Part shown: piece after piece, positions 43,159 to 59,283 of the stretch
How the letters are laid out: each line of letters begins with the position of its first letter
Position numbering within the stretch: the first letter of the stretch is position 1
Assembly: GCF_016907385.1 (NCBI RefSeq)
Contig: NZ_JAFBBU010000001.1
Location: 124,001 to 188,000, forward strand
Source: Subtercola frigoramans
GTDB taxonomy: Bacteria > Actinomycetota > Actinomycetes > Actinomycetales > Microbacteriaceae
DNA: 64,000 bases
Reading direction: 5' to 3'
The notes under the pieces: model-generated
What the model saw: the letters and a program-made list of their open reading frames with translations, nothing else
Told to the model about the DNA's origin: nothing
Databases searched by the model: none
Position numbers and translations under genes: made by a program

Positions 43159-43908
43159 GTGAGGTTCGTGATGGTGCAGGTGACGGAGAGAGACGAGGCC
43201 ATGTTGGAGTGGCTGACGGTGGTTCGGATCGCAGATATTGAAGGGGTCCGGTGGGCGCTGGGTGCGACGTCTGGTCGGGATCAGCCGGTGACGATCCGGC
43301 GGGCGAACCAGTGGGTCACGAGGCTCGCGAAACTGGGATGGGTAGATAGGGCACGTCCGACGTTCCGTGATGGATCGATCATCTGGGCCACTCACCAGGC
43401 CATCGGGAAAACACCGCCGAACCTGTTCAAACAGACCACCAGACACGAGGTCGCGGTCGCCCTCGTGTCCGCACGCTACCTTGCTGCCGGGTACGCGTGG
43501 CGGCGCGATCGGAAGCCCGCCGGGATGCTCGATCATCAGGTCGACGGGGTCGCCCAGAAGGGTGACCGGGTCGAGCTTGTCGAGGTCGAACTGACTCCGA
43601 AAACGTGGCAGCGGTACAAGCAGATTTGCGACAATCACGTGTTCCGTTTGGACCGCGAAAACGTCGCCCGCGTCGCCTACTTCTGCACCGCCGATGCGGC
43701 CCGGATCGTGGACCGGGAAGCGGACAAGTTCATCTTCCGAACCGAACGCCACAAGCTCACCGCTGTGACTGCGTTCGACGTGAAAGGGCACTGGATCGCC
43801 GGCGACGCTCCCGTCGCCGAGACCGTCGTAACGGCTGGTCCGGAGAGTGTGAGCTCGGTGCTTCAGGGCGCAGCGGGATGGGGTGCACCAGGGCAGGTCG
43901 AGCCATGA
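43159..43908 (+). CDS. Replication-relaxation family protein
   Basis: A 249-residue protein matching the actinobacterial Replic_Relax type. The N-terminal half is a winged helix (VTERDEAMLEWLTVVRIADIEGVRWALGA..TIRRANQWVTRLAKLGWVDRARP). The C-terminal half resembles a PD-(D/E)XK-like fold (GMLDHQVDGVAQKGDRVELVEVELTPKTWQRYKQICDNH). Family members sit next to coupling ATPase genes on plasmids and ICEs and are linked to transfer or replication. Its TGA overlaps the next ATG (ATGA). The start is GTG 43,159 or ATG 43,171. It follows the candidate origin directly. Confidence 0.8.
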   Translation: MRFVMVQVTERDEAMLEWLTVVRIADIEGVRWALGATSGRDQPVTIRRANQWVTRLAKLGWVDRARPTFRDGSIIWATHQAIGKTPPNLFKQTTRHEVAVALVSARYLAAGYAWRRDRKPAGMLDHQVDGVAQKGDRVELVEVELTPKTWQRYKQICDNHVFRLDRENVARVAYFCTADAARIVDREADKFIFRTERHKLTAVTAFDVKGHWIAGDAPVAETVVTAGPESVSSVLQGAAGWGAPGQVEP

Positions 43909-45959: not shown

Positions 45960-47043
45960 TCAGCTTTCCTTCCGGGCCGACGACTGCAGCACAGTTCCGA
46001 TGTGGTCCAGGTCCAGCGACGGGACGAACCCTGGATCCTCATACAGCGCCTGAAGGGCTCCGGTCGCGATAGCGCTCACGTCTGTTGTGGCGCGGAGTTT
46101 GGTGTCGCCTTTGGCGGCGTTCCACGCGCTTTGCCACACCATCGCAAGCGTGAGTGCGCCGTCGGCGAAAAGGCCAACAGTCTGTTGGCCAAATTGCGCC
46201 CACAACGCATCCGTGACCTTCACGCTGCTGTCGCCCTTCTTCATCGCCACGGCCGCGTACGCGAGGACGAGGGTTTTCGGGTCGATGGCTTTCGCAGACC
46301 GGTCCATCAGGTTCACGATCTCGACAGCGACCTGCTGCCCCGTCGTAACTGTCGGGTGCGGGTCGGCGTTCTTAAGGGCAGTGGTGAGGGCGGTGAGGAT
46401 GTCGGTGTCGTGCCGGTCGACCATTGTGGATTCGTACGCCGAGTGCACCCCAGACCCGGTGCCGTCCGGGAGCCCGTCGGCGAGGTAGGAACCGTGCAGC
46501 GGTTGACAGGCGTCGCCGACATAGTGCGCGACAAGTCCCGCTGCCGCGACGTACCGGGTGAGGTTCTTGGCTTTGATGGCGGCGACCATTTCGTCGAAGA
46601 ACTGCCACACCCGAAACGGCAACAACCCCCGGTCGCCGGGGTCGGTGTGGCCGAGGCTGGTGTAGTACTCCTGCCACACCGCCACGTTCACATTCGCCGG
46701 ATCCTGCATGCACAGCTCCCGGATGGTCTTTTGATCCGAGGGGCGTGGTTGGTCGGCGTCGGCGAAGTGCGTGGTGTGTTCCGGACCGGTCCGGAACGCC
46801 GTATCTCGGCCGCCCTTCACCGCCGAGGGCAGGTTCTTCCAGACCAGATCGGGAACGTCCGCGAGCGGGATGAACCCGCCAGCCTTCTTCCCGGCAATGG
46901 TCCCGTTGTTGATGTCGGTGGCAACGAGGTCGCGGAGGGCGAAACTGATCCGATCCACATTGCTGGTCATCAAGGTCTGGAGGGTGGGGGAGGTGAGGTG
47001 TTCGGTGGCGTAGGACGCGATCGTGTAGTGTCCGGTTTCCCCC
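45960..47043 (-). CDS. S1/P1-like zinc nuclease domain (3' part of a frameshifted fusion)
   Basis: About 360 residues resembling S1/P1 nucleases. The frame that starts upstream of 47,043 is not the true start; restoring one G in the G5 run (47,039-47,043 on the coding strand) joins this frame to the protease gene and creates WGETGHYTIAS. Zinc motifs are W-G-x-x-G-H, HFAD in PEHTTHFADAD, HYVGDACQPLHG and the HSAYES region. S1/P1 enzymes cleave single-stranded DNA and RNA; zinc-dependent phospholipase C has a related fold, so lipid cleavage is possible. In S1/P1 the Trp of WG is the mature N-terminus and binds zinc. Confidence 0.72.
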
Positions 47044-48226
47044 AGAACGGTTGCGCACCGGTGTTGTAGTCCACGACGAGCTCGACGTTCAAGATCCGGA
47101 GGATGTTGGTGAGGCTGGTCGCGAGGGTGAAGTTGTAGTTCTTCCCCGTCGAAGCGAGAAACGATTGTCCGCCCCACTGCAACGCGATCGGCCGCAACGG
47201 CTGCCCGTCCGCTTGCACGAGGTGCCAGAGGGTGCCGGAGTCCCCGGGCCGGCTGTCGGGGGTGCCGGGCGTGGGGGAGATGAGGAAGTCGGTGACGTCG
47301 TCGTACCCACCCACACTCCGGTACCGGTAAAACAGAGCGGTAATCCGGCCGGAGAGATTCCCGGAAGCGGCACCGAACGCGCGGACTTCGGCGCCGATCA
47401 GGCGGACGCTGATGTTCTGCTCGTTCAGATCCGCAAGCTCACCCACTTTCGGCAACCCGTAGCCCTGCGACGTCCACGCGGTGACGTCATCGACCTCGAT
47501 AAGACCGGCATCGAGGGTGAGGTAGGTGCGGCGGCCGGGGAAGTCCGTGTACACGTCGGAGAACGGCAACCTTGTGATCTGGTTCGCAGCCGAGCGTCCG
47601 ATGGGGGTTTCGGTGCCGTCCGCGACGCTCGACACGACCGTCCCCGCAGGGCCGGTCACGTGACGGCTGGTCAGCGCGAACACGGTATGTCCGTCGGTCA
47701 CGAGGGTCCCGACGGACGCGACGTTCTGCACGCCCTGGACTTCGCACAGCAGCGGGAACCCGCCCCCGATCCGGCCGGCTGGCCACGTCCGAGGCGGCAG
47801 CACCGAGTCGTCCGGTGCGGACCGTTCGACGAGGACGACGCAGACCGGGACGGTGCGGCCGTCGGGGAGGTAGAGGGTTTTCGGGACGACTTGGTCGGGG
47901 GAGGTTTGCCCGTCGCCGAGACCGAACTTGTCAGCGTCCAACCACTCATCGACGAGGACGAGGATGCACGGCCAGGAGTAGTCTCGGATTTCGGAGTTCT
48001 CGAACGTCCGCGCTGGTTTCACCGTCATCGCCCGCCGCGCCGAAAACACCCTTTCAGAGGCCTCGGGTTGTGGGTCGGTGGTGCGGATAAGGTACCGGCC
48101 GACCGCGGTGCCGACGACGTTCTTCTTGTTCAGCAGATGCCAGTGATACTGATCCCTAGCCTCGAGCAGGTCCGCTGTCGACAGGCTCGCGAAATCACTA
48201 TCTGCACCCAACACATCCACCACCAC
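46970..48226 (-). CDS. Trypsin-like serine protease domain protein (5' part of a frameshifted fusion)
   Basis: About 418 residues in this frame; coding quality is lost after 47,039. The N-terminal domain (VVVVDVLGADSDFASLSTADLLEARDQYHWHLLNKKNVVGT) is unknown. The protease domain has the His in FALTSRHVTGPAGTVV, an Asp candidate in YLTLDAGLIEVDDV and the Ser in DSRPGDSGTLWHLV. There is no signal peptide, so the enzyme would act in the cytosol. The chosen start is GTG 48,226 (a GTG cluster after GGGGG). Its last in-frame conserved residues are NTGAQPFWG, where the nuclease frame takes over. Accessory gene; a defence or toxin role is inference. Confidence 0.72.
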   Translation of the reverse strand: MVVDVLGADSDFASLSTADLLEARDQYHWHLLNKKNVVGTAVGRYLIRTTDPQPEASERVFSARRAMTVKPARTFENSEIRDYSWPCILVLVDEWLDADKFGLGDGQTSPDQVVPKTLYLPDGRTVPVCVVLVERSAPDDSVLPPRTWPAGRIGGGFPLLCEVQGVQNVASVGTLVTDGHTVFALTSRHVTGPAGTVVSSVADGTETPIGRSAANQITRLPFSDVYTDFPGRRTYLTLDAGLIEVDDVTAWTSQGYGLPKVGELADLNEQNISVRLIGAEVRAFGAASGNLSGRITALFYRYRSVGGYDDVTDFLISPTPGTPDSRPGDSGTLWHLVQADGQPLRPIALQWGGQSFLASTGKNYNFTLATSLTNILRILNVELVVDYNTGAQPFWGKPDTTRSRPTPPNTSPPPPSRP

Positions 48227-48486
48227 AACCCCCAAGCCTCGGCACCGCGCCAAGCGGGCGCTAGTACCTTCGATCGCGTTCTGACGGCAGAATACACTCC
48301 ACCCTCCGACACCGAAAGAGACGCGTGGTGAACTCGCGGGGTGCAGCATCACACGCTGCCGACCACCTTGGCTCTGGGCACGATGGTGCCGGAACTGGCA
48401 CGAAGGGCCGCGTCGCTTTAATCGAACATATGTACTGGGTATCTGCTTCACTGAAGTGAGGCTAAAGAGGCGATACTCTAGGGCTT

Positions 48487-49028: not shown

Positions 49029-49952
49029 TCAGTCAAACTGCGCGCCAACGATAAGGTCGCTGAGCGGCTGAGGTCCCGTGTTTACCGCCTGCTCGAGCAG
49101 TCGGTAGAACAGCAGACCTCGACTTGCGGCGGTTCGACGGTTGAAACGAAACACGAATTCGTCGAGGTAATAGGCAAGATGGTCGCTGGACGCGCCGTAG
49201 TGCAGCGTGCCGGTCAGCCACCGTTTCAGAAGTGAAGCGACCATGTGTACGCCAGGCAGGTCGACATGAGCGGGAACGGACGAGCCGAGTTGAGTGAAGT
49301 AGGTGTGGTCATAACCGAGCCCCGATAGCCGTCGAAGTTCCCGAGCGCCGTCTGTTCTGACCTTTGAGGCGGGCGCTACGACGCGCTGGGTGAACTCGAT
49401 CAATGCCAGCCCGCCCGTAGGGGTCGGTTCCAGACGCACTCGGCCGAGTTTGCGGGCGGTCACCATTTCCGCTGCGAACATTACCCCTAATTTGTCGCTC
49501 GAACGGCCTGCGTTGCCTCGGCTGATACCGCCGACATAGGTCTCATCCACCTCCACGACGCCAGACAGCACGTCGCGATTGGGGACAACCATCGCGCGTC
49601 GAAGTTTGTGCATCCAAGCCCAAGCGGTTTCATAGGACTTCAGCCCGAGCACGCGTTGAAGGCCAAGTGCAGAAACTCCGTTCTTCTGCGCCATCGCGAA
49701 CCACACCGCCGCGAACCAGGTACGGAGAGGTGAGCGAGTGCCCTCAAAGATCGTTCCCGCGGTAACCGACGTTCGGCGAGAGCAGCTTTGACACATCCAA
49801 AGCTTTGAGGAGGTTCGCCAGAACGTCATTCCGGAGCAGGCAGGGCAAACGAAACCAGCAGGCCATCGCAATTTCGCGAGGTAGTCAAAGCATGCCTCAC
49901 CAGGCCCCAACCCGCCACCCTGACACCGGAAGAACTCGACCTCGAACGCCAC
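49029..49952 (-). CDS. IS1595/ISXO2-like transposase, N-terminus uncertain
   Basis: About 307 residues. A zinc ribbon (FVCPACSGMTFWRTSSKLWMCQSC) and SVTAGTIFEGTRSPLRTWFAAVWFAMAQKNGVSALGLQRVLGLKSYETAWAWMHKLRRAM precede the catalytic domain: Asp in GVVEVDETYVGG, Asp in KVRTDGARELRRL and an acidic C-terminal YYLDEFVFRFNRR. The usual N-terminal phrase before ACFDYLAKLRWPAGF (a helix ending in EEACLDYL) is missing; instead there is FFRCQGGGLGPGE. I could not find terminal inverted repeats, so the copy may be 5'-truncated or recombined. It marks the right edge of the cargo island. Confidence 0.8.
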   Translation of the reverse strand: MAFEVEFFRCQGGGLGPGEACFDYLAKLRWPAGFVCPACSGMTFWRTSSKLWMCQSCSRRTSVTAGTIFEGTRSPLRTWFAAVWFAMAQKNGVSALGLQRVLGLKSYETAWAWMHKLRRAMVVPNRDVLSGVVEVDETYVGGISRGNAGRSSDKLGVMFAAEMVTARKLGRVRLEPTPTGGLALIEFTQRVVAPASKVRTDGARELRRLSGLGYDHTYFTQLGSSVPAHVDLPGVHMVASLLKRWLTGTLHYGASSDHLAYYLDEFVFRFNRRTAASRGLLFYRLLEQAVNTGPQPLSDLIVGAQFD

Positions 49953-49955
49953 CCG

Positions 49956-50141
49956 GTGAAAGCCGCGGAGCAACCCATTCGGGTCAAGGCGTGGGTGCGG
50001 TTCCCGGAAGCCGTGATCCGCGCCGACGCGGAAGCGTTCGAATGGACTGACCGGGCCGTGCACATCCGCTGGACAGCAGCCGATGGCGCTCCTCGGCAGG
50101 CCTGGGTCTGGGCATCCTCAGTCGACCGACTCCAACCATGA
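49956..50141 (+). CDS. Small unknown protein, perhaps truncated at the IS boundary
   Basis: From GTG 49,956 it reads 61 residues: KAAEQPIRVKAWVRFPEAVIRADAEAFEWTDRAVHIRWTAADGAPRQAWVWASSVDRLQP. The open frame continues upstream without a stop to about 49,863 (ATLTPEELDLERHP before the GTG), so the natural start may have been lost or replaced when the transposase gene arrived. The strong pattern of charged and aromatic residues suggests a real backbone gene of the element. It is next to the redoxin leader. Function unknown. Confidence 0.5.
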   Translation: MKAAEQPIRVKAWVRFPEAVIRADAEAFEWTDRAVHIRWTAADGAPRQAWVWASSVDRLQP

Positions 50142-50176
50142 ACCACAACAGCACGGTGGGATGGCGCGACTGGCCC

Positions 50177-50337
50177 GTTTCGGGGACCTTTCCGGGTGCC
50201 GATCGTACTTCCCGGGCACCAACTGCGCACCGACCGGTCGGGACGCGCCCCCAAGGGCTTATTTCGCCCAGACCAGCCGGAACTCCGCCGGCTCCCCGTC
50301 GCCCTGACGCGCCCTGCCGGAAAGGCACCACCGAAAC
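50177..50337 (+). ncRNA. Structured leader L1 upstream of the redoxin gene
   Basis: The closing stem GTTTCGG (50,177-50,183) pairs with CCGAAAC (50,331-50,337), and CCTTTCCGG (50,187-50,195) with CCGGAAAGG (50,317-50,325). Inside are GGTGCC/GGCACC, GGGC-TTATTTC-GCCC and AGCCGG/CCGGCT hairpins. It ends 20 nt before the ATG at 50,357. Architecture shared with leaders at 53,189-53,335 and 57,846-57,996. Confidence 0.65.
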
Positions 50338-50356
50338 CACCGAAAGGACCCCCATC

Positions 50357-50584
50357 ATGACCACCGTGACACTGTTCTCCAAGCCAGGCTGCGTCCAGTG
50401 CACCGCCACCAAACGCGCTCTCACCGACCGGAGCATCGACGCCGAGATCATCGATATCACTCAAGACCCAGCTGCCCTCGAGCACGTCAAGGGACTCGGC
50501 TACCTGCAAGTTCCCGTCGTCGAAACACCGACCACGACCTGGGTAGGATTCCGGCCCGACCTGATCGCCACCCTCGTCCTCTGA
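50357..50584 (+). CDS. NrdH/glutaredoxin-like redoxin
   Basis: A 75-residue thioredoxin-fold protein: MTTVTLFSKPGCVQCTATKRAL, with the redox motif CVQC, then IIDITQDPAALEHVKGLGYLQVPVVETP (cis-Pro region) and TWVGFRPDLIATL. NrdH proteins supply electrons to class Ib ribonucleotide reductase; on conjugative elements they may support dNTP supply during DNA synthesis. AAAGGA at 50,343-50,348 gives 8-nt spacing to the ATG. It follows leader L1. No nrdEF genes are adjacent in this window. Confidence 0.9.
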   Translation: MTTVTLFSKPGCVQCTATKRALTDRSIDAEIIDITQDPAALEHVKGLGYLQVPVVETPTTTWVGFRPDLIATLVL

Positions 50585-50620
50585 TGGCGTCACGTCGTGG
50601 GCGGGTTCTAGGCTGACCGG

Positions 50621-51307
50621 ATGATGCGGCTTCTTCTCATCCGGCACGGTCAAACCCCAGCTAACGTCCTCGGCCAACTCGACACTCACGCGCCTGGTCC
50701 CGGCCTCACCGATATCGGCTTCCAACAAGCCGCGGCCATCCCGCGGGCTCTCCGCGACCAACCAGTCGACGCCATTTATGCCTCGACGCTGGTCCGCACC
50801 CAGCTCACCGCGCAGCCCCTCGCAAGTGAGCTCGGTCTCGCCACCACGGTTTTGGACGGGCTCCGCGAGATTGAAGCCGGCACCCTCGAAGACCGAACCG
50901 ACCCCGCCTCGGTCGACACCTATCTGACCACATCATTCTTATGGGCCGAGGGCCACCTCGACGAACGAATCCCGGGCGGTCCCGATGGAAACGAGTTCTT
51001 CGACCGCTACGACGACGCCATCGCCCACATCCAAGCGAACGGGGACGAGGTCGTCGCGGTGTTCAGTCACGGCACGGCCATCCGGACGTGGGCGGCTGCA
51101 CGAGTGGCGAACATCGACGGAAGCTACGCATCCACCCACCAACTCGACAACACCGGCATGGTCACCCTGCAACGCGAGAACGAAGACGACCCGTGGGAGC
51201 TCGTGACGTGGCTGGAAACCCCGCTCGGCGGGAGCAAACTTGCCGACGCTCGTGCGGTCGACCCAGCTGGCGATACCTTGCTCGGCGCTCGCGCCAGACA
51301 GGTCTGA
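50621..51307 (+). CDS. Histidine phosphatase (phosphoglycerate-mutase-like) protein
   Basis: A 228-residue phosphatase. The phospho-His motif is LLIRHGQTPANVLGQ. The second Arg and catalytic acid are in YASTLVRTQLTAQPLA and LREIEAGTLEDRT, and the second His is in VAVFSHGTAIRTWAAARVA. The substrate is unknown; many such proteins act on small phosphate esters. It lies 36 bp after the redoxin gene on the same strand. A perfect palindrome at its stop codon may terminate the transcript. Accessory on the element; role in transfer not evident. Confidence 0.87.
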   Translation: MMRLLLIRHGQTPANVLGQLDTHAPGPGLTDIGFQQAAAIPRALRDQPVDAIYASTLVRTQLTAQPLASELGLATTVLDGLREIEAGTLEDRTDPASVDTYLTTSFLWAEGHLDERIPGGPDGNEFFDRYDDAIAHIQANGDEVVAVFSHGTAIRTWAAARVANIDGSYASTHQLDNTGMVTLQRENEDDPWELVTWLETPLGGSKLADARAVDPAGDTLLGARARQV

Positions 51308-51321
51308 CCGATCGGTCAGAC
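51302..51321. terminator. Perfect 20-bp palindrome at the phosphatase stop
   Basis: GTCTGACCGATCGGTCAGAC overlaps the TGA at 51,305-51,307 and, on the other strand, the stop of a small reverse frame at 51,316. It can fold as a hairpin (8-bp stem) for both strands, or be a regulator's site. No U-run follows. Confidence 0.5.
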
Positions 51322-51432
51322 TCCGACGATCGGCGCGTCGGCCAGCCCGACCCGGAATCGGTACTCGCCTCGGGCGCCCTTACAAAGTTCGAATTTTCCA
51401 ACCATCAGACGACCCGCTTCCGCTACGCGCAT
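51316..51432 (-). pseudogene. Fragment resembling DUF1508 (YegP-like)
   Basis: Reads MVGKFELCKGARGEYRFRVGLADAPIVGV at its end, close to the usual start of DUF1508 units (GKFELYK..GEFRFRLKA), then stops at 51,316. Only part of one unit remains, without the ILSSEGY segment. The frame runs upstream without a clear start to a TGA near 51,525. Short, so could be chance. Confidence 0.35.
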
Positions 51433-51564
51433 GGCGTCGTTGCCCTGCAACTGCTTGACCGCGTACTGCGCGGCAACGGGTTCGGTGGAAGACCAGTCCT
51501 GGCTCCCGGGTCAGGTGATCTGTAGCCCGAGTAAGCCTCGAGCGGGATTCGTTGGGGCTGGAAG

Positions 51565-51735
51565 TCAGGCTCCGGCCAGTGCCGACCGTTCGTGCAGTGC
51601 GCAGACCGCGTACTCAACGAGGACGCCACTCTCATTCACGACCATCGTCCGGTCAGGTGCTTCATGGCAGTCGCCGATCATGCACTCGATGCGTTCGCCC
51701 ACGCGCAAACCATACTCCTTACGAGCAGACCTCAT
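51565..51735 (-). CDS. Small unknown protein (56 aa)
   Basis: Reads MRSARKEYGLRVGERIECMIGDC, then HEAPDRTMVVNESGVLVEYAVCALHE and a short tail. The Cys residues (C..C....C), charged pattern and beta-like spacing suggest a compact fold, perhaps metal-binding. AGGAG lies 9 nt before the ATG. It sits upstream of the reverse-strand DUF1508 fragment and downstream of the ssb1/dprA genes. No family recognised; supported by ribosome-binding site and composition only. Confidence 0.5.
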   Translation of the reverse strand: MRSARKEYGLRVGERIECMIGDCHEAPDRTMVVNESGVLVEYAVCALHERSALAGA

Positions 51736-51813
51736 AAGAGCTGACTCCTAGCGCGATTGGCGACATTGAGCAGGTGGGCGCGGGCATCTTGCCTCGCGCC
51801 CACCACTGGTTGC

Positions 51814-52179
51814 TCAGCTACCGTCGTCGCCGCGGGTGACTCGGCGGACCTGGGCGACGGCGCGGGAAAGATTAACACCGATGGCCTCGGCATGGATTAC
51901 CCGCCCGTATTGGCGGTTGTCGTCGGCTCCCCAGGTTTCGGTCTGCTCGCGTCCGATGATGATGACGGAGTCGCCCTTGTGGAGGGTAGCGGCAGCGTTC
52001 TCGCCGAGTTCGAAGCGAGCTTCAACGAAGTGCGTCGTCGCCGAGGGGTGGGCGTGCCAGGTGCCTGCGCGGTATTCGCCGGTGTTCTCGATGACGCGAA
52101 TTTTGGTGATGGTGATGCAGCCGGCCTGGACGATTTCGGGGTCGGCGGCGAGGTTCCCGGTGATGGTTCGTGTGGACAT
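51814..52179 (-). CDS. Single-stranded DNA-binding protein (element copy 1)
   Basis: A 121-residue OB-fold protein of the SSB type: TRTITGNLAADPEIVQAGCITITKIRVIENTGEYRAG, HFVEARFELGENAAATLHKGDSVIIIGREQTETW, ending in VRRVTRGDDGS. It lacks the long flexible tail and the canonical DDDLPF tip of housekeeping SSB, and so probably does not recruit the usual partners. SSBs on conjugative elements coat incoming single strands and limit the SOS response. It lies 51 bp after the dprA gene on the same strand and is likely in the same transcript. Confidence 0.85.
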   Translation of the reverse strand: MSTRTITGNLAADPEIVQAGCITITKIRVIENTGEYRAGTWHAHPSATTHFVEARFELGENAAATLHKGDSVIIIGREQTETWGADDNRQYGRVIHAEAIGVNLSRAVAQVRRVTRGDDGS

Positions 52180-52230
52180 GATTTGTGTTCTCCTATCTAG
52201 GTTGTGCCGGGGTGGCGTTGTGTTGGGTTG

Positions 52231-53154
52231 TTAGAGCCAGTCGGCGTCGGTGATGGTGGTGATGGGGACGGCGCCGTGGTTGCGGATGAGGGTGTTGCAG
52301 CCGACGCTCTGCGGGCTGATGATCATTCCGGGGACTGCGCCGATGCCGCGGCCGAGTTCTTTGGCGATGAGTGCGGTCGAGAGAGCGCCGACGGTGTCCT
52401 CGGCCTCGATCACAATTGTTTTCTCGGCCAGCGCGGCGGTGAGCCGGTTCCGTTGCTGGAACCGGGCCGGCGGGGTGCCGGGCGGCAGCTCGCTGACGAG
52501 CGCACCGGTCTTGGCGATGCGGCTGAGCATGAGCTGGTTCCCGGTCGGGTAGAACTGATCGACCCCGCCGGCGAGCACCGCGATCGTCGGGCAGTCCAGG
52601 GCCAGTGCGGCGCGGGCCGCGTACGTGTCGATCCCGTACGAGGCGCCGGTGACGATGGTGTAACCGCGCTGCGCTAGCCCGCTGGCAAGTTCAAGGCAGA
52701 CATGCCGCCCGTACGTCGTGCAGGCCCTCGACCCGGTCACGGTCACCGGGCCCCGGTTGAAGAGGGTGGTATCGCCGCGGACCCAGAGCGCGTGGGGCAT
52801 CGCGAACCCCAACCCTTCGACGAGCTCCGGCCAGCCGGCCCGCTCTGGGGTGAGGAGCGTGTACCCCTTCCGTTGGGTCGCGTTGATCGCGCGGACCGCG
52901 TTCTTCACCGAGAACCGTTCGGAGGCAACCTTCCGGATGTGCGTGAGCGGGATGCCAGCAGCAAAGTCACCGGTGCTGTTCAGGAGGATCTCGAGGGCGT
53001 ATTCGTGGCCGACGGTCTGGGTGAGCGCCCCGGCAAGGGTATCGCCCGGATTGGCGATCCCGGCCCACACGATCCTCGCGACCGTGTTCGCGGAGTGGTG
53101 CGTATTGGTGGTGTGTTGAAGGGCTTCGACGAGGGTTCGGTTTGTCTGGGCCAT
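52231..53154 (-). CDS. DprA/Smf-like DNA-processing protein
   Basis: A 307-residue Rossmann-fold protein. It has an N-terminal helical region, then VTVTGSRACTTYGRHVCLELASGLAQRGYTIVTGASYGIDTYAARAALALDCPTIAVLAGGVDQFYP, SELPPGTPPARFQQRNRLTAALAEKTIVIEAEDTVGALSTALIAKELGRGIGAVPG and NTLIRNHGA, the complete DprA core. DprA loads RecA on incoming single-stranded DNA in transformation; on a conjugative element it may act on the transferred strand. It is transcribed away from the ardC-like gene, and leader L2 precedes it. ATG 53,154 has AGAGAGG upstream. Confidence 0.9.
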   Translation of the reverse strand: MAQTNRTLVEALQHTTNTHHSANTVARIVWAGIANPGDTLAGALTQTVGHEYALEILLNSTGDFAAGIPLTHIRKVASERFSVKNAVRAINATQRKGYTLLTPERAGWPELVEGLGFAMPHALWVRGDTTLFNRGPVTVTGSRACTTYGRHVCLELASGLAQRGYTIVTGASYGIDTYAARAALALDCPTIAVLAGGVDQFYPTGNQLMLSRIAKTGALVSELPPGTPPARFQQRNRLTAALAEKTIVIEAEDTVGALSTALIAKELGRGIGAVPGMIISPQSVGCNTLIRNHGAVPITTITDADWL

Positions 53155-53188
53155 GAGCCTGTTTTTTCCTCTCTGAACAACAATTTTT

Positions 53189-53335
53189 GTTTGCCTTCCG
53201 GCGAGAGAAACGTGAACGAGCGAGAGGGCCTGGAGTGCCCAGAATCTCGGGCGAAATAAGCCCGCAGGGCGCGTCCGTGAATCTGGGAACGCAAGGGCTG
53301 AAGCGAGTTAGGTTCGTCAGCCGGAAAGGTCAAAC
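53189..53335 (-). ncRNA. Structured leader L2 upstream of dprA
   Basis: On the minus strand GTTTG...CCTTTCCGGC pairs with GCCGGAAGG...CAAAC, closing about 147 nt. Inside, CCCAGATTC pairs approximately with the GATTCTGGG segment, enclosing GACGCGCCCTGCGGGC and TTATTTCGCCC. About 90% identical to L4 at 57,846-57,996. It ends 35 nt before the dprA ATG. Confidence 0.7.
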
Positions 53336-53488
53336 AAGACCCCAAACATCCCCATCGGCACAGCGTCGCGCAGCGGCACCGTTCAGACGCTTGTTGAGCT
53401 GCGAACGCAGCTCCCCGCACTAACTCGAGCAGGTTCTGACGGAGCGCCGTCGGGAACGGACCGCCCAGGAAACAGCGCAACAGCAGGG

Positions 53489-53507
53489 TGATATCAGGGT
53501 GCTATCA
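53489..53507. promoter_or_regulatory. Inverted TGATATCA / TGCTATCA site
   Basis: GGTGATA and TATCACC flank a 9-bp centre (53,487-53,509). The same octamers recur as TGATAGCA, CGATAGCA, TGATATCA and TGCTATAA at 58,569-58,627 before parA. Candidate binding site of the ParA/RHH or another element regulator. Confidence 0.5.
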
Positions 53508-53559
53508 CCGTGGACACGTCGAAACCAGCCCTCGCCCCGCAGCCCGCAGCCGAGGCCTC

Positions 53560-53852
53560 GGCCCAACGGCTCCGCTGTCGCCCTCTTTTGTCTGATTTGA
53601 GCGGCTTCGCGGCGCTGTAGCCGCCCCTGGTCGGGGCATGTTGGTTTGGCCGTGAATCCTTCGGAAGCGTACGGGCCCGCCCGTTTCGCGCAAGCAGCTG
53701 CGCTGCCGGCTCCGCCGAGATTTCCGGCACGCGGTCGCTGCGCTTCCTCATTTCGTGCCGGAAATCTCTCCCCCACCGCCCTCCGGGTGGCGCTTTACGG
53801 CCTGTCCCTAGCGGCGGTGAACCGCCTTCACGGCAAAACAACGTGGAGGAGA
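53560..53852 (+). ncRNA. Structured leader L3 upstream of ardC
   Basis: GCCGTGAA (53,649-53,656) pairs with TTCACGGC (53,827-53,834). Inside, GAGATTTCCGGCACG (53,717-53,731) pairs perfectly with CGTGCCGGAAATCTC (53,754-53,768), with CATTTCG in its 3' part. A GGCCCAACGGCT... extension reaches back to 53,560. It is a direct repeat of L5 (55,371-55,665) and ends about 34 nt before the ardC ATG. Confidence 0.7.
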
Positions 53853-53867
53853 GAAGGAGAACAGACC

Positions 53868-54800
53868 ATGACCACCGCAACCGCCACCCGCACCAGCACG
53901 ACCCGCACCCCCGTTAAGACGGCCGAGAAGAAAAAAGCGCAAGCGGAGGCGCTGCAGCAGTCGATCACCCATCAGGTCGAGACGTTGCGCGACTCCGGCC
54001 GATGGGAAGCGTTCCTCGACTTCGCGCAAGCGTTCCACGCGTACTCGCTGAACAACGTTTTGTTGATCCTCTCTCAGATGCCCGAAGCGTCGCAGATCGC
54101 GGGGTTCCGGAAGTGGCAGGCCCTGAACCGGCAGGTTCGGAAGGGCTCGAAGGCGATCCGCATTTTCGGGTACTCGACCAACAAGGTCACCGAGGAAGAC
54201 GCCAACGGCGACGAGGTAGAGAAGAAGATCTCCCGGTTCCCGATCCTGTCAGTGTTCGATGTCAGCCAGGCAGACCTCATCGACCCCGACCAGGGCGACC
54301 CCAGCACCCTCACCACGCTCCTCACCGGCGCGGACGATCACGGCATCGTGGACGCCCTCAGCTCCTACCTGATCGGTGAGAGCTGGGCTGTCGAGCGCTG
54401 GCCCCTGCCGGGCAGCATGAACGGTGTCACCCGGCCTCAGGAGATGACGGTGGTTATCGACTCTGATCTGTCGCCGGAGGCGGCGGCGAAGACGATGATC
54501 CACGAGTGCGCGCACATCCTGTTGAGCCACATTGACGACTTGGCCGAGTACGCCCAGCACCGCGGCCTGCTGGAGACCGAGGCCGAGAGCGTCGCCTACG
54601 TCGTCGCCGGAATGGTCGGGTTCGATACTTCCGCGTACTCGGTGGGCTATATCGCCGGATGGGCGAACGCAGACACCGACCTCATCAAATCCACCGCCGC
54701 CCGGGTGCTCCGCACCGCGCACCAGATCGCCGGAATCCTCACCCCCGAAGACGAAGCAACAGACGACCCTGCAGACGAAACCGCAAACGCCGCCGCCTGA
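53868..54800 (+). CDS. ArdC-like antirestriction protein with zinc-peptidase domain
   Basis: A 310-residue protein. The N-terminal ArdC/DUF1738 single-strand-binding region is QVETLRDSGRWEAFLDFAQAFHAYSLNNVLLILSQMPEASQIAGFRKWQALNRQVRKGSKAIRIFG. The C-terminal metallopeptidase domain shows the zinc motif MIHECAHILLSH (HExxH) and LLETEAESVAYVVAGMVGFD (third ligand Glu). ArdC proteins protect incoming DNA from restriction. The ATG at 53,868 follows GGAGGAGAGAAGGAG. Leader L3 lies upstream, matching early expression in a recipient (inference). Confidence 0.9.
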   Translation: MTTATATRTSTTRTPVKTAEKKKAQAEALQQSITHQVETLRDSGRWEAFLDFAQAFHAYSLNNVLLILSQMPEASQIAGFRKWQALNRQVRKGSKAIRIFGYSTNKVTEEDANGDEVEKKISRFPILSVFDVSQADLIDPDQGDPSTLTTLLTGADDHGIVDALSSYLIGESWAVERWPLPGSMNGVTRPQEMTVVIDSDLSPEAAAKTMIHECAHILLSHIDDLAEYAQHRGLLETEAESVAYVVAGMVGFDTSAYSVGYIAGWANADTDLIKSTAARVLRTAHQIAGILTPEDEATDDPADETANAAA

Positions 54801-54864
54801 CCTCACCACCGCGGGGGTGGCAGGATCGCCGTCCCCGCCCGAACCCCGGAAGGGAAGCAAGATC

Positions 54865-55275
54865 ATGATCATCACCTATCAGCGCCCCGACACTCTCGGC
54901 CACGAGCTCGACCCCGAAGCCCCGAATGCTTGCCGCAGTGTCGATGGCTCCGAGTGCGGAGCCGAAACCATCGACACAGATGGGATCCAGTGGCGCTGCA
55001 CCCGCGCCCCACACCCTGGGCAGGACGAACACCGTGCCGCGTACGAAAGGGACGGCGACGGCCCCGACGGTGCCGTAGCGATCGCCTGGACTTACCAATA
55101 CGCCATCGAAGACCAGACCGGCGGAGACACCGACAACGCAGCCCCCGTGCACACCATCACGGTCTCGTTCCCTGACCGGGCATGCGGCGTCGACGCCGAG
55201 AAGATCCGCAATGCGATTCTCGACCTGTTCTGGGAAGGCGACGCCGACGACGTACAGATCATCGTCTCGACCTGA
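54865..55275 (+). CDS. Unknown element protein (136 aa)
   Basis: Reads MIITYQRPDTLGHELDPEAPNACRSVDGSECGAETIDTDGIQWRCTRAPHPGQDEHRAAYERDGDGP, with four Cys in the first half, then FPDRACGVDAEKIRNAILDLFWEGDADDVQIIVST. Acidic overall; the C-terminus looks like a small alpha/beta unit. It lies 64 bp after ardC on the same strand, with GGAAGGGAAG before the ATG, so it probably belongs to the ardC transcript. Family not recognised. Confidence 0.75.
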   Translation: MIITYQRPDTLGHELDPEAPNACRSVDGSECGAETIDTDGIQWRCTRAPHPGQDEHRAAYERDGDGPDGAVAIAWTYQYAIEDQTGGDTDNAAPVHTITVSFPDRACGVDAEKIRNAILDLFWEGDADDVQIIVST

Positions 55276-55370
55276 ACACGCAACGCCTCCAGGAACAAGC
55301 GACGCCCGCCCGAAGCACCGGGCGGGCGTCGCTGTCGTGATCATGACCGGAACAACGGGGTGCGAGTAGT

Positions 55371-55665
55371 GGCCCAACGGCTTCGCCGTCGACCTTCTTC
55401 TCTGGATGGAGCCGCTTCGCGGCGCTGTTGTCGCCCCTGGCCGGGGCTCGTTGTTTGCCGTGAATCCTTCGGAAGCGTACGGGCCTATCCGTTCCGCGCA
55501 AGCAGCTGCGCTGCCGGCTCCGCCGAGATTTCCGGCACGCGTTCACCCTTCGGGCTCTCTTATTTCGTGCCGGAATTCTCTCCCCGCCGCCCTCCGGGTT
55601 GCACTGCACGGCCAGTCCCTAGCGGCGGTAAACCGCCTTCACGGCAAAACAACGAAGAGGAGATA
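55371..55665 (+). ncRNA. Structured leader L5 upstream of the DUF3846 gene
   Basis: TTGTTTGCCGTGAA (55,451-55,464) pairs with TTCACGGCAAAACAA (55,638-55,652). Inside, GAGATTTCCGGCACG (55,525-55,539) pairs with CGTGCCGGAATTCTC (55,566-55,580), one mismatch, with TTATTTCG just before it. It is a direct repeat of L3. It ends about 18 nt before ATG 55,670. The remaining 55,276-55,370 holds an inverted pair GGCGTCGCT / GCGACGCC that may terminate the preceding gene. Confidence 0.7.
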
Positions 55666-55669
55666 TGAA

Positions 55670-56041
55670 ATGACTGAACACATTACCGGGATCCGGATCG
55701 ACAACGACGGGGCACTGTCCACCGTCTGCATCGACGCCACCAACACCCACACCCGCCTGCTGGGCATGTACCAGCACATCGGCTGCACCACCGTCGACGT
55801 CATCGGGCTGGAAGGCAGCATCGATGCGTGGGTCGACGACGAAGGCCTGTACACGCAGGAACCGAACCCGACCCTCACGTTGATGCTGCGGCTCACCCGC
55901 CCGTTCCAGACGCACCTGTCCGGTCCCGGCTTGTTCCTCAGGTCGAACGAGGACGGCGACACCGTCAGCCTCACCCCGGAGCAGACCGCGACGGTCATTG
56001 AGTGGTGGCAGTTCGCGAACGCCATCGTCCCTATCCAGTAA
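55670..56041 (+). CDS. DUF3846-like protein
   Basis: A 123-residue protein: HITGIRIDNDGALSTVCIDATNTHTRLLGMYQHIGCTTVDVIGLEGSIDAWVDDEGLYTQEPNPTLTLMLRL, then LSGPGLFLRSNEDGDTVSLTPEQTATVI. This matches the DUF3846 pattern (WVDDEGL, the GD..SLT end), common on actinobacterial plasmids and phages. Its role is unknown. AGAGGAGATATGAA precedes the ATG. Follows leader L5. Confidence 0.82.
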   Translation: MTEHITGIRIDNDGALSTVCIDATNTHTRLLGMYQHIGCTTVDVIGLEGSIDAWVDDEGLYTQEPNPTLTLMLRLTRPFQTHLSGPGLFLRSNEDGDTVSLTPEQTATVIEWWQFANAIVPIQ

Positions 56042-56059
56042 CACCAACCCAACAAAAAA

Positions 56060-56100
56060 GGTCGGGAACCGAAGCAAGTGAAGTGCCTCGGTTCCCGACC
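56060..56100 (+). terminator. Strong hairpin between DUF3846 and the ParB-like gene
   Basis: GGTCGGGAACCGA (56,060-56,072) pairs perfectly with TCGGTTCCCGACC (56,088-56,100), with an AAAAAA run before it. It lies 19 nt after the DUF3846 stop and 33 nt before the next GTG. Either a terminator or a leader hairpin of the next gene. Confidence 0.65.
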
Positions 56101-56132
56101 GACCCAACCACACTACCAAGAAGGAAAACATC

Positions 56133-57611
56133 GTGACCAAGAACAACACCACCCCGGCAGCCGACAACAGCACAGCCGCCCCGGACCTCGCTGCGAGCCT
56201 CGCAGCAGGCACCGTCACCATCGAATCTGTTGACCCGCAGAAGGTCGAGCTTGACCCGAACATCCGCACAAACCCCGTCCTGCCCCCGGAGTTCGTGGAC
56301 TCGATCCGCGCCGAGGGAGTCCGAGAGCCAGTCCTCGCGCGTCGGGGTGAGGACGGCATCACGTACGTCTATGACGGACAACGCCGCTTGCTCGCGGCCC
56401 GAGAAGCGTGGCTTAGCTCGATGCTGGCCGTGTTCGGTATCGCGGACACTACGGGCACCGCGTCTGGCCGGATCCTTGATCAGCTGCGGACCTTCGCCCG
56501 CACCGAACTGACCCTCACGGACCGGATTGCCGCGTACGAGCAACTGGCCCTTGACGGGATCAGTGTGGACAAGATCGCCAAATCCGCCGGAGCAGACAAA
56601 GCCACCGTCACCGGGGCATTGAGCATCGGTCAGAGCAAAGCCGCGACGCAGTACGCCGGTTACGGCACGGTTTCTTTTGACCGGCTACTCCTGATCGCAG
56701 AGTTCGACGGGAACGAGGACGCCATCGCCGCCATCACCGACTGCGACGACGAAGACCTCAACTATGCCGCGCAGGAATGCCGCGACGAAACCGCCCGCCA
56801 AACCCGACAGACTGAGGTCGTGACCGTTCTCGAGGCCGAGGGTCTGACCGTGGTTACGAAGTGGGACTACTCGACGATGGCGCACCTATCCCGACTGACG
56901 AACGCCGCCGAGGATGCTGACGAGCGTCCTGCGTTGGATGCGGTGGCGCACAGGGGGTGTGAGGGTCACGCGGTGTTCGTGACGGTGAACGGGCTCGGTG
57001 AGGACGACACTGAAGTGGTGCCGCTCTGCACGAAGCCGGAATTGCATCAGCCCATCTATCGCGGCTACCGCCAGCAAGCGACAGCGCCGGTTGAACTGTC
57101 CGAGGAAGAAGCCGACGCCCAGGCCGAAACCAAGCGCGCAGAACGGCGAACGCTGATCGCGAATAACAAGGCGTGGGACACAAGTGAGACGGTCAGGAAA
57201 GGCTGGATCACAGAGTTTCTGACGCGGAAGAAGCTCCCTGCAGATGCGGCCGCGTTCGTCGCGGTGACCCTGACCCGGCACTCGTATGACGTGACCGGCG
57301 ACAACAGCGGCGGCGCCGCAGTGTTCCTCGGCCACGAAGGTTACGCGGCACGCGAGGCTCTCGCCGTGATGGTCGAGGCAACCCCGACGAAGGCCGGATA
57401 TGTGAGTCTCGCGGTCGCGTTGTCCGCGCGGGAGAACCGGACCAGCCGGGAGTCATGGCGGAACCCGAACCCATCGGATGAGGCCTACCTTTTGCAGATC
57501 GAAAAATGGGGCTATCACCTCTCCGTCGTCGAACGGATCGCGGCAGGCTGCCCAGAAGCGGAAGCGGACGCGGACGCGACTGCAGAAGACGCAGAAACGG
57601 ACACCGAGTAA
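56133..57611 (+). CDS. ParB/Spo0J-like partition-type protein
   Basis: A 492-residue protein. The ParB N-terminal domain is VELDPNIRTNPVLPPEFVDSIRAEGVREPVLARRGEDGITYVYDGQRRLLAAREAW, followed by an HTH region LTLTDRIAAYEQLALDGISVDKIAKSAGADKATVTGAL. The long C-terminal part has an acidic/coiled-coil-like stretch (EEADAQAETKRAERRTLIANNKAW) and a unique domain. The ParB domain typically binds CTP and clamps DNA. It may act with ParA at 58,648, although a separate small RHH protein follows ParA. GTG 56,133 has AAGAAGG upstream. Confidence 0.87.
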   Translation: MTKNNTTPAADNSTAAPDLAASLAAGTVTIESVDPQKVELDPNIRTNPVLPPEFVDSIRAEGVREPVLARRGEDGITYVYDGQRRLLAAREAWLSSMLAVFGIADTTGTASGRILDQLRTFARTELTLTDRIAAYEQLALDGISVDKIAKSAGADKATVTGALSIGQSKAATQYAGYGTVSFDRLLLIAEFDGNEDAIAAITDCDDEDLNYAAQECRDETARQTRQTEVVTVLEAEGLTVVTKWDYSTMAHLSRLTNAAEDADERPALDAVAHRGCEGHAVFVTVNGLGEDDTEVVPLCTKPELHQPIYRGYRQQATAPVELSEEEADAQAETKRAERRTLIANNKAWDTSETVRKGWITEFLTRKKLPADAAAFVAVTLTRHSYDVTGDNSGGAAVFLGHEGYAAREALAVMVEATPTKAGYVSLAVALSARENRTSRESWRNPNPSDEAYLLQIEKWGYHLSVVERIAAGCPEAEADADATAEDAETDTE

Positions 57612-58026
57612 CACCTCGGAGGGGTGGGCCGCGCGCAACACGGCCCGCCCCTCACCTACACCAGTTCGGAGATCACCTCACCGCCGCAGATGGGTGTGTG
57701 CGCCGGCCCTCCCGGGGCCGGCGGCGAAAGGGAATAGGCGGTTCGATTCCGCGCTTTCTTCTCAGCGTTCAGATGGTCGCCGGCACGGAGGCCGGCGACG
57801 GGGAAAGCGGAGCCGCCCGGTGGGCGGCGCAGTGCTGATGGTGCTGTTTGTGACCTTTCCGGCGGACGAAGCTAACTCGCTCCGGGCCTTGCGTTCCCAG
57901 ATTCACTGACGCGCCCTGCGGGCTTATTTCGCCCGCGAATCTGGGCACTCCAGGCCCTCCAGCTCGTTCACGTTTCTCTCGCCGGAAGGCACAAACAGAA
58001 TGTCGATCCCTAAGGAGAAAAGCACA
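57612..58026. other. Intergenic region with leader L4 and flanking hairpins
   Basis: No gene seen. Ahead of leader L4 (57,846-57,996) there are GCCGGCCCTCCCGGGGCCGGC (57,702-57,722 region) and CGCCGGC/GCCGGCG hairpins (57,779-57,798 region). AAGGAG at about 58,010 is the ssb2 ribosome-binding site. Confidence 0.5.
57846..57996 (+). ncRNA. Structured leader L4 upstream of ssb2
   Basis: GTTTGTG...CCTTTCCGGCG pairs with CGCCGGAAGG-CACAAAC. Compared with L2, the extra pairs GTG/CAC appear in both arms together. Inside, CCCAGATTC pairs with GAATCTGGG around GCGGGC-TTATTTC-GCCCGC. It ends 31 nt before the ATG at 58,027. Confidence 0.7.
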
Positions 58027-58437
58027 ATGAACGACACCATCACCGTCACCGGAATTATCGCGACCACCCCGAGGAGCATCACCACCGACGAGGGCCTTGC
58101 GATTAGCTCGTTCCGGTTGGCGTCCATGCAACGCCGCTACAACTCGGCCAGCAAAGAAGCCCGCGAAGAAACCAACTGGTACACCGTCACCACCTTCCGG
58201 GCCCTCGCCGAACACGTCGCTGCGTCCTTGAACAAGGGCGATCACGTCATCGTCACCGGCAGCGTGCACATCCGAGACTGGGACAACGACGGCAAGACCG
58301 GAACCACCGTCGAGATCGAAGCCAACAACGCAGGCCCCGACCTCGTCTTCGGCACCAGCCTCTACACCAAAACCCCCACAGCCAATGGGGACACCGTGGG
58401 GGCCGAGCCGGTCGGTGACAGCGACAACCCCTTCTAA
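58027..58437 (+). CDS. ssb: Single-stranded DNA-binding protein (element copy 2)
   Basis: A 136-residue OB-fold SSB: DTITVTGIIATTPRSITTDEGLAISSFRLASMQRRYNSASKEAREETNWYTVTTFRALAEHVAASLNKGDHVIVTGSVHIRDWDNDGKTGTTVEIEANNAG. It ends in DSDNPF, close to the DDDLPF/PF tip that docks SSB partners, unlike ssb1. AAGGAG before ATG 58,027 fixes the start; an ATG at 58,000 lies inside the leader region. Follows leader L4. Likely coats the transferred strand in the recipient. Confidence 0.92.
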   Translation: MNDTITVTGIIATTPRSITTDEGLAISSFRLASMQRRYNSASKEAREETNWYTVTTFRALAEHVAASLNKGDHVIVTGSVHIRDWDNDGKTGTTVEIEANNAGPDLVFGTSLYTKTPTANGDTVGAEPVGDSDNPF

Positions 58438-58568
58438 CCACCATGCGGGGGTGCCGAACCTTGGTCCGGCACCCCCGCCCTTCCTCACAGCAAGGGGCTA
58501 AGAAGCCATGAGCCGCTCAATTGATGACACGCGGTCGCGCCCTATCGACGAATGGTGTCGGTGGGGCG

Positions 58569-58627
58569 TGATAGCAAGGGGCAATTAAACCGATAGCAGT
58601 TGGCAGACTGATATCAGGCTGCTATAA
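58569..58627. promoter_or_regulatory. Cluster of GATAGCA-type octamers upstream of parA (candidate parS/operator)
   Basis: TGATAGCA (58,569), CGATAGCA (58,591), TGATATCA (58,609) and inverted TGCTATAA (58,620) lie within 60 bp, 20-80 bp before the parA GTG. ATAGCAG and CTGCTAT form an inverted pair. The same octamers are at 53,489-53,507. Candidate centromere or autoregulatory site for ParA and the RHH protein. Confidence 0.55.
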
Positions 58628-58647
58628 GAAAGAGCTAGGAGCATAGT

Positions 58648-59283
58648 GTGATCATCCTTGTCGGAAGCGAAAAGGGCGGCCCCGGTAAAACCACCGTCGC
58701 CATCAACCTCAGTGCCGAGTTCGCGCGCCTGGGCCGGGACGTGGTCCTCGTTGACGCGGACGCGCAACGCTCCGCCGCCCGCTGGCACGCCGACCGAGAA
58801 GAAGCCCGGATCACCCCGGTCATCGCGTCGGTTGAGAAACTCGGTAACGTCCGCGACACCCTGCTGGACCTCGACCACCGCTACGACATCGTCGTTGTCG
58901 ACGTCGCGGGGAAAGACAGCAAAGAAATGCGCACTGGGATGACCGCCGCGCACAAGATGATCGTCACCGTCCGCCCCTCCCAACTTGACCTCGACACCCT
59001 CCCGCACATGAAAGACCTCGTCGACCAAGCACGCGACTTCAACCCGAACCTTGACGTCCGCGCCCTGCTCACCCAAGTCCCCACCAACGCCAACGGCACC
59101 GAGCACGAAGACGCCGCCGACTACCTCGCCGATTACCCCGAACTGAACCCGATGCGCACCGTCATCCACGAACGGAAGGCATACCGTGACGTGGTCGGGG
59201 AAGGCCGCGGCGTCGTGGAATGGAACAACCCCAAAGCCCGCGCTGAGATCCAAGAACTCGCCGGGGAGCTGATGGCCAAATGA
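58648..59283 (+). CDS. parA: ParA-family partition ATPase
   Basis: A 211-residue small (type Ib) ParA with no N-terminal HTH. The deviant Walker A is SEKGGPGKTTVAINLSAEFARLGRDVVLVDADAQRSAARW, and Walker A'/B parts are YDIVVVDVAGKDSKEM and VTVRPSQLDLDTLPHMKDLV. ParA drives segregation of plasmid DNA; an ICE that carries it may replicate as a plasmid for a time. The start is GTG 58,648, with AGGAG upstream. Its TGA overlaps the next ATG (ATGA), pairing it with the RHH protein. Confidence 0.92.
   Translation: MIILVGSEKGGPGKTTVAINLSAEFARLGRDVVLVDADAQRSAARWHADREEARITPVIASVEKLGNVRDTLLDLDHRYDIVVVDVAGKDSKEMRTGMTAAHKMIVTVRPSQLDLDTLPHMKDLVDQARDFNPNLDVRALLTQVPTNANGTEHEDAADYLADYPELNPMRTVIHERKAYRDVVGEGRGVVEWNNPKARAEIQELAGELMAK

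Follow-up and report, generated by a model that had tools for sequence, protein, structure and literature searches.

Structured leaders in mobile elements of Microbacteriaceae as probable single-stranded DNA promoters

Promoters active in single-stranded DNA (ssDNA) are documented for enterobacterial plasmids (PMC9849209, PMC11541004), and such activity has been published for Frpo of plasmid F (PMC9849209). The Frpo and ssi elements of F and ColIb-P9 lie upstream of leading-region genes, among them ssb and anti-restriction genes, and the folded single strand rebuilds -10 and -35 boxes (PMC9849209, PMC11541004). Here we describe five folded leaders in a 64,000-nucleotide stretch of Subtercola frigoramans DNA (contig NZ_JAFBBU010000001.1, positions 124,001 to 188,000; the whole stretch is called the window below). 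They belong to an element of the genome, which is a single contig of 3.68 Mb. The leaders form one class with two sub-types, type B (L1, L2 and L4; about 150 nucleotides, nt) and type A (L3 and L5; about 205 nt). We consider it probable that they are Frpo-like ssDNA promoters, present only in the single-stranded state.

Leaders and Frpo/ssi elements are alike in having leading-region genes downstream, including ssb and anti-restriction genes, and in that these genes point towards oriT. Several copies exist in both systems (two on F), and in both the opposite strand folds better. Loci with leaders also have the gene order of F, with leading genes, oriT region and tra genes. The leaders differ from Frpo in their length of about 150-205 nt, GC-richness, occurrence in Actinomycetota, TANNNT-type -10 and number of copies, up to five per element. 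When covariance models were used (R1 for type B and R2 for the core of type A), R2 gave no match to F Frpo, and R1 gave two weak matches inside the Frpo repeats (18.9 bits, E 0.002, and 16.1 bits, E 0.01, under a rough calibration). Judged by their sequences, the leaders appear to lack a clear relation to Frpo. A simple consensus scan of F Frpo for -10 and -35 boxes returned nothing at the threshold used; hence, the comparison rests on the published description and on fold strength.

Two other described systems deserve comparison. EGeRS1 elements of Bacillus pLS20-family plasmids are conserved structured regions of 400-600 bp located just before the ribosome-binding site (RBS) of establishment genes, ardC among them, and no strong housekeeping promoter was found there (PMC8708921). 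Their authors held an ssDNA promoter highly unlikely, as the nicked strand is the non-template strand and the fold did not show a promoter (PMC8708921). The leaders are likewise structured regions directly before the RBS of establishment genes, including ardC. They differ in size from the 400-600 bp of EGeRS1, however, and their strand bias, -10 and gene direction fit the template strand. The STAXI motif (RF01728) is made of tandem pseudoknots, often with UUCG loops, found in Enterobacteriales near ssb and anti-restriction genes; an ssDNA function was considered by its authors, who held RNA more likely (PMC2864571). The leaders resemble STAXI as folded elements near ssb and anti-restriction genes. 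Unlike those tandem pseudoknots of Enterobacteriales, they give no Rfam match, whether at the gathering threshold (whole window) or at E<=1 (positions 49900-58700). No described actinobacterial case was found in a literature search that mostly did not reach subscription journals, and the main text of PMC11541004 contains no word beginning with 'actino'.

A first-pass annotation of the window had proposed five structured leaders with a shared fold, and these do exist, at or near the places proposed and beyond chance, as indicated by identity, model scores and covariation. L2 (53187..53337, minus strand; R1 139.4 bits) points in the direction opposite to the other four, and L4 (57846..57996, plus; R1 132.3 bits) is its near-identical inverted copy, with 92.9% identity over 141 nt. 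L1 (50177..50337, plus; R1 92.2 bits, E 3e-20), before the glutaredoxin gene, is the divergent member of type B and a distant relative of the L2/L4 type. L3 (53640..53848, plus; R2 117.6 bits for the core 53689-53793) and L5 (55449..55662, plus; R2 106.1 bits for the core 55497-55604) are direct copies with 87.2% identity over 211 nt. Both relationships agree with what had been proposed. The 5' ends of L3 and L5 had been placed too early, as their conserved part begins some 80 nt later (at about 53640 and 55449). A gap of 18-35 nt between each leader and its start codon had also been claimed, and it does not hold for L3 (15 nt) or L5 (4 nt) if the ends then given are used; their closing stems stop sooner than those ends, at about 53843 and 55653.

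In both types the fold has a closing stem, the left arm contains an ANNNTA stretch, and an ACGCG motif and an alike apical loop are present; the type B model also matches the apical part of type A leaders. An ATTTCG motif, previously located near an internal hairpin, is present as part of the apical loop, which reads CTTATTTCG in type B and in most type A copies compared, and CTCACATCG in two type A copies. Just 5' of each type A leader of the window there is a separate GC-rich hairpin (53623-53637 and 55433-55447), which may provide insulation from upstream transcription. A GC-rich hairpin also precedes many type A relatives. A sixth, decayed type B copy is found beyond the window, at window coordinate 68354-68514 (L008:5354-5514; 36.6 bits); by appearance, it precedes a frame-broken glutaredoxin-like stretch. 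In the whole 3.68-Mb genome the type B model gave six matches at E<=1, all within this element (150 of 2186 first-look candidates were scored).

Folding of single sequences yielded z-scores of -7.2 for L4, -4.4 for L5, -3.6 for L3, -2.5 for L2 and -1.9 for L1. Because the last two values are weak, L1 and L2 are convincing through homology alone. For wider comparison both models were run on 88 sources, and 115 type B and 51 type A copies were collected, some records being present twice. Changes on both sides of a pair occur at 46 of 48 pairs in type B, with 806 such cells against a shuffled mean of 245, and at 21 of 33 pairs in the type A core, with 95 cells against 18; none of 500 shuffles reached the observed value in either type, although kinship of the rows inflates such counts and the model itself guided the alignments. 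A measure of further pair types was less discriminating in type A, where 65 of 500 shuffles reached the observed value. With the pair partners shifted by 1-3 columns, the score of type B fell from 0.35 to 0.07 or less. Lack of covariation in homologues had been named beforehand as grounds for giving up the proposal; covariation is strong in B and A.

The same alignments indicate which strand folds. An RNA fold of the gene strand would be expected to tolerate G-U pairs but not A-C. In structures computed without G-U pairs, A.C mismatches on the gene strand outnumber G.T by 34 to 15 in type B (16 sequences) and by 11 to 2 in type A (8 sequences). The large alignments, from which rows at least 90% identical to a kept row had been removed for all strand and -10 counts (115 to 94 in B, 51 to 30 in A), give 193 to 140 and 25 to 5. 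Hence, in neither type is G-U tolerated better than A-C, as a structured RNA leader would require. The opposite strand is also the more stable one, in 93/94 B and 29/30 A leaders with RNA energies and in 93/94 and 30/30 with DNA energies. When ten shuffles per sequence were used to correct this difference (a home-made shuffle), the excess had p values of 1e-15 (B) and 0.007 (A), calculated on non-independent rows. In the Frpo regions of F the opposite strand likewise folds better in two of two cases (RNA energies, without shuffle control). Thiamine pyrophosphate (TPP) riboswitches of relatives served as control; 29 of 30 loci were used, one not being orientable, and three of the 30 do not reach the cut-off score of the family. 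They show the RNA pattern, with G.T 25 versus A.C 3 and a better opposite strand in 5/29. Opposite-strand stability and mismatch lean are reversed in this control, and the fold of the leaders is most likely formed by ssDNA rather than RNA.

A promoter signal on that same strand was also detected. TANNNT is the -10 of actinobacterial housekeeping promoters, and its use here is supported by the riboswitch control, in which gene-direction TANNNT is found within 60 nt upstream in 20/29 loci (shuffled expectation 8.6), mostly 8-12 nt before the RNA. When all well-filled columns of type B were scanned on both strands, a single column was found at which 89 of 93 copies have TANNNT on the opposite strand (one more row, with a gap there, was left out); every other well-filled column, on either strand, has it in at most 3.3%. 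Its inner bases vary (TACGAT 61, TACGGT 16, TAGGTT 5, and others), which fits a -10 rather than a fixed RNA motif. In type A, opposite-strand TANNNT occupies one position, 23 nt before the core, in 19/30 copies, and TTGNNN-N14-20-TANNNT is found in 21/30, with a spacer of 16 in 18 of these, as compared with 2 of 389 background windows. The predicted -10 sequences of the window are TACGAT for L1 (50202..50207, minus), TAGGTT for L2 (53309..53314, plus, opposite to dprA), TACGCT for L3 (53666..53671, minus, with TTGCGC 16 nt before on the same strand), TACGCT for L5 (55474..55479, minus, TTGCGC again 16 nt before) and TAGCTT for L4 (57869..57874, minus).

No comparable signal is seen in the gene direction. 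A gene-direction -10 at a fixed place in or around the leaders does not exceed 3.3% in type B and reaches at best 5/30 in type A, 19 nt before the core. Within 60 nt upstream, gene-direction TANNNT occurs in 5/94 B and 1/30 A leaders, as against the 20/29 of the control; within 200 nt, it occurs in 4/30 A leaders. These results bear on the reading of the leader as a cis-regulatory RNA, transcribed in the gene direction and controlling termination or translation through its fold. The location directly before the RBS (the gap is 15-40 nt in 81 of 108 type B copies, with start codons set by a simple rule that makes some values wrong), the conserved apical loop, the covariation and the 20 of 94 B leaders that do have gene-direction TANNNT within 200 nt would all suit such an RNA. 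However, the mismatch bias is the reverse of that of RNA, whereas riboswitches put to a test of this kind behave as RNA; the opposite strand folds better in 93/94 B leaders; and upstream -10 enrichment, present in riboswitches, is missing, the fixed -10 being on the other strand. The strand bias, the lacking upstream promoter signal and the riboswitch control thus disfavor an RNA leader, which we regard as unlikely.

A fixed -10 on one strand must also be weighed against functions of double-stranded DNA. One is an inverted repeat, or cruciform, bound by a protein encoded by the element, such as the ParB-like protein or the single-stranded-DNA-binding protein SSB. Long imperfect palindromes in several copies, with ParB-like genes close by, are what such a site would look like; the prediction, however, would be equal numbers of A.C and G.T, no strand preference and no one-sided TANNNT at a fixed place, and we consider this explanation very unlikely. 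Another is an ordinary promoter that fires away from the gene and drives either a divergent gene or antisense transcription, as the opposite-strand -10 (in type A also the -35) can be read in double-stranded DNA too. Of 25 annotated genes that precede a leader, 7 lie on the opposite strand; the other 18 are co-oriented, so that the product would run against them, and a long covarying fold upstream of that start would be needless. Hence, an outward promoter appears the least probable of the alternatives considered.

In the first-pass annotation the leaders were suggested to be under a common control, exerted by an RNA element or, as in F-like leading regions, by an ssDNA promoter. That they form one class is borne out, and the second option is favored because of the opposite-strand fold preference, the fixed opposite-strand -10, the absence of gene-direction -10 enrichment and the contrary behavior of riboswitches. 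An ssDNA promoter could work as follows. The transferred strand, taken as the template strand of the genes, would enter the recipient, and the leader would fold back on itself. In the folded opposite strand, the left arm (in gene orientation) would be the non-template strand of the local duplex and the right arm the template, and the arm towards the 3' end of the transferred strand would carry the -10, in type A also the -35, as non-template strand. RNA polymerase would bind the folded leader, start near the hairpin base and continue onto the single-stranded template of the gene, so that anti-restriction, ssDNA-binding, partition and redox genes would be made early. Once the complementary strand has been made, the same -10 would face away from the gene and expression would stop. 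The identity of the transferred strand, the use of polymerase, the start site and the shut-off are parts of this scheme that we infer.

The geometry of the fold is compatible with this scheme. In the 89 B copies folded, mismatches are frequent around the -10 and 6-10 nt past its first T, and are followed by a firm stem of about 15 nt; from the first T of the -10 to the base of the hairpin the distance is 25-31 nt. With an RNA start 12 nt past this T, the base would be at about +13 to +19, and the RNA of L4 would start near 57982. By this reasoning, among the four possible combinations of strand and arm only an opposite-strand -10 in the left arm would let polymerase exit towards the gene. The -10 would therefore be predicted to point out of the hairpin into the gene when folded, and away from it in double-stranded DNA. 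The geometry would be identical for a primer start site, at which polymerase primes synthesis of the complementary strand on the folded transferred strand and gene expression is secondary. The title of a paper by Masai and Arai (1997) reportedly mentions transcription as well as primer synthesis in connection with Frpo. With as many as five copies in an element, mostly 15-40 nt before a gene start, the leaders are better suited to expression, and priming as the main role seems improbable.

Type A relatives were found by BLAST in 66 and 71 plasmid records (two settings), chiefly from Clavibacter, Curtobacterium and Microbacterium, and type B relatives in 9 and 10 (two settings), chiefly from Cryobacterium and Herbiconiux; one Arthrobacter also matched, and Dietzia and others matched in part. 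Among Microbacteriaceae genomes, R1 matched 48 of 299 and R2 30 of 299. Under stricter filters, with weak matches lost, an order-wide sample had 3 of 297 genomes matched, all Microbacteriaceae, and a phylum-wide sample 1 of 296, S. frigoramans itself. As the covariance-model check proposed in the first pass revealed, homologues in Microbacteriaceae and their plasmids sit directly before ardC, parB-like, dprA, DUF3846, glutaredoxin and ssb genes. A Pfam census of 121 of the 166 downstream open reading frames (ORFs), from which doubtful ones and most repeats were left out by hand, counted ArdC 22, ParB_N 19, DUF3846 16, glutaredoxin 15, DprA 12, SSB 5 and DUF3560 2.

Leaders also have an almost constant orientation relative to the relaxase or mobC gene where one was detected. 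In 19 loci with a relaxase or mobC match of at least 100 bits (five of which had supplied queries), 35 of 36 leaders are on the relaxase/mobC strand and point at it; L110, from the same record as L014, and L113, near-identical to L007, were not counted. These loci include MOBP and MOBF (TrwC) types, with the same leader direction in both. A conserved AGCAAGCTRT with an inverted repeat was found upstream of mobC (L005:21618, L007:18401, L012:32646, L061:9624, L070:13298, L112:776 and L130:1963); it is likely the oriT of these MOBP elements. Known nic motifs gave scattered matches before mobC. The oriT-like motif lies on the side that fits opposite-strand transfer in 23/23 cases (8 loci, one near-identical to another), a count that is not independent, as the motif was derived by aligning seven of the same mobC loci. 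The motif is not present in the window element.

Several observations weigh against the leaders being ssDNA promoters. The A.C excess of type B shrinks with thinning, to 130 versus 90 below 80% identity and to 61 versus 50 below 70% (p 0.34); unpaired columns of type A lean likewise, with A/(A+G) 0.51 and T/(T+C) 0.45; and base composition accounts for about half of the strand energy difference in B and for most of it in A. Type B lacks a convincing -35: no TTG-like hexamer was found, just a weak GGNACG block at the right distance. Those 20 of 94 B leaders with gene-direction TANNNT within 200 nt belong here too. Upstream TANNNT is, moreover, below shuffle expectation on both strands and not in the gene direction alone: a mononucleotide shuffle of B predicts 17.9 (60 nt) and 51.9 (200 nt), and the other strand has 8 and 27. 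The claim is therefore limited to an absence of enrichment and does not extend to selection against a -10. The transferred strand has been deduced from gene order and the oriT-like motif, not from a nick position. In four of the 19 relaxase loci (L090, L100, L103 and L106), a small ORF and then a relaxase-like gene follow the leader immediately (this gene is TrwC in L100 and L106, the two scanned); since the leader directly precedes the relaxase operon, pointing at the relaxase is trivial there.

Leaders run in both directions in 16 of 44 multi-leader loci, the window included (L063 and L064 overlap), and one transferred strand cannot serve both directions. Several mixed loci have ardC one way and a small 'MRVF' ORF the other. 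Members of this ORF family begin with MRVF(I/V)IDT or MRVFVIDA and stand directly behind leaders (L088:7727-8047, L089:6955-7350, L100:7465-7758 and L106:7587-7859); after them comes a phage-type integrase in L088 and L089 and a TrwC relaxase in L100 and L106. The L090 member has no Pfam match and the L088 member no NCBIfam match. In the window, dprA and ssb1 with L2 oppose the rest, whereas in L070, from the same genus, ardC, DUF3846, dprA, mobC and relaxase all run one way. Recombination between inverted leader copies could rearrange such a region. In addition, neither relaxase nor mobC was detected in the window element by tblastn or with the TrwC and Relaxase profiles, and the sole TrwC match of the genome is 2.1 Mb away. 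Given the mixed directions and the lack of a detectable relaxase, the class may function elsewhere and be represented in the window by a member that has been rearranged or is immobile.

The genes behind the window leaders are those initially named, as Pfam agrees on glutaredoxin, DprA, ArdC, DUF3846 and SSB: an NrdH-like glutaredoxin gene (50357..50584, plus; PF00462, E 7e-13), a dprA-like gene behind L2 (52231..53154, minus; PF02481, E 1e-55) with ssb1 downstream (51814..52179, minus; PF00436, E 6e-8), an ardC-like gene (53868..54800, plus; ArdcN PF08401, E 2e-12), a DUF3846 gene (55670..56041, plus; PF12957, E 2e-13) and ssb2 (58027..58437, plus; PF00436, E 7e-19). A ParB-like gene (56133..57611, plus; TIGR00180 of NCBIfam, E 6e-6, below cut-off; no Pfam match) has no leader in the window, and its relatives in other elements have their own. 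Operator-like repeats TGATATCAG / TGCTATCA are seen at about 53488-53510, in the dprA-ardC gap, and at about 58560-58630, before a ParA-like gene at 58648. Elsewhere in the element, an integrase gene (39923-41047) adjoins a tRNA-Ser gene, an IS1595-type transposase gene lies at 49029-50063, and a SCO6880-family gene at window coordinate 63860-65578; weak VirB4-like matches follow the latter and occur also at 43605-45791, and IS110- and IS21-type genes are located past the right edge of the window. Neighboring minus-strand ORFs at 45960-48451, also within the element, match S1/P1 nuclease (weakly) and Nal1_C.

Taken further, the leaders would represent an actinobacterial family of ssDNA promoters that is not clearly homologous to Frpo and has its -10 on the opposite strand. 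Direction would flip with the state of the DNA, up to five copies would make up a regulon for entry only, and those in front of relaxase or integrase operons would also bring integration and onward transfer under it; for this wider proposal, we see slightly better than even chances. If true, the leaders would be a built-in switch for early expression. If Actinomycetota have such a family, this would point to early expression from incoming single strands as a general phenomenon, and the opposite-strand -10 together with the mismatch bias would provide a strand-resolved sequence test for finding more. The leaders would also mark the genes that the element needs first, including genes of unknown function such as DUF3846.

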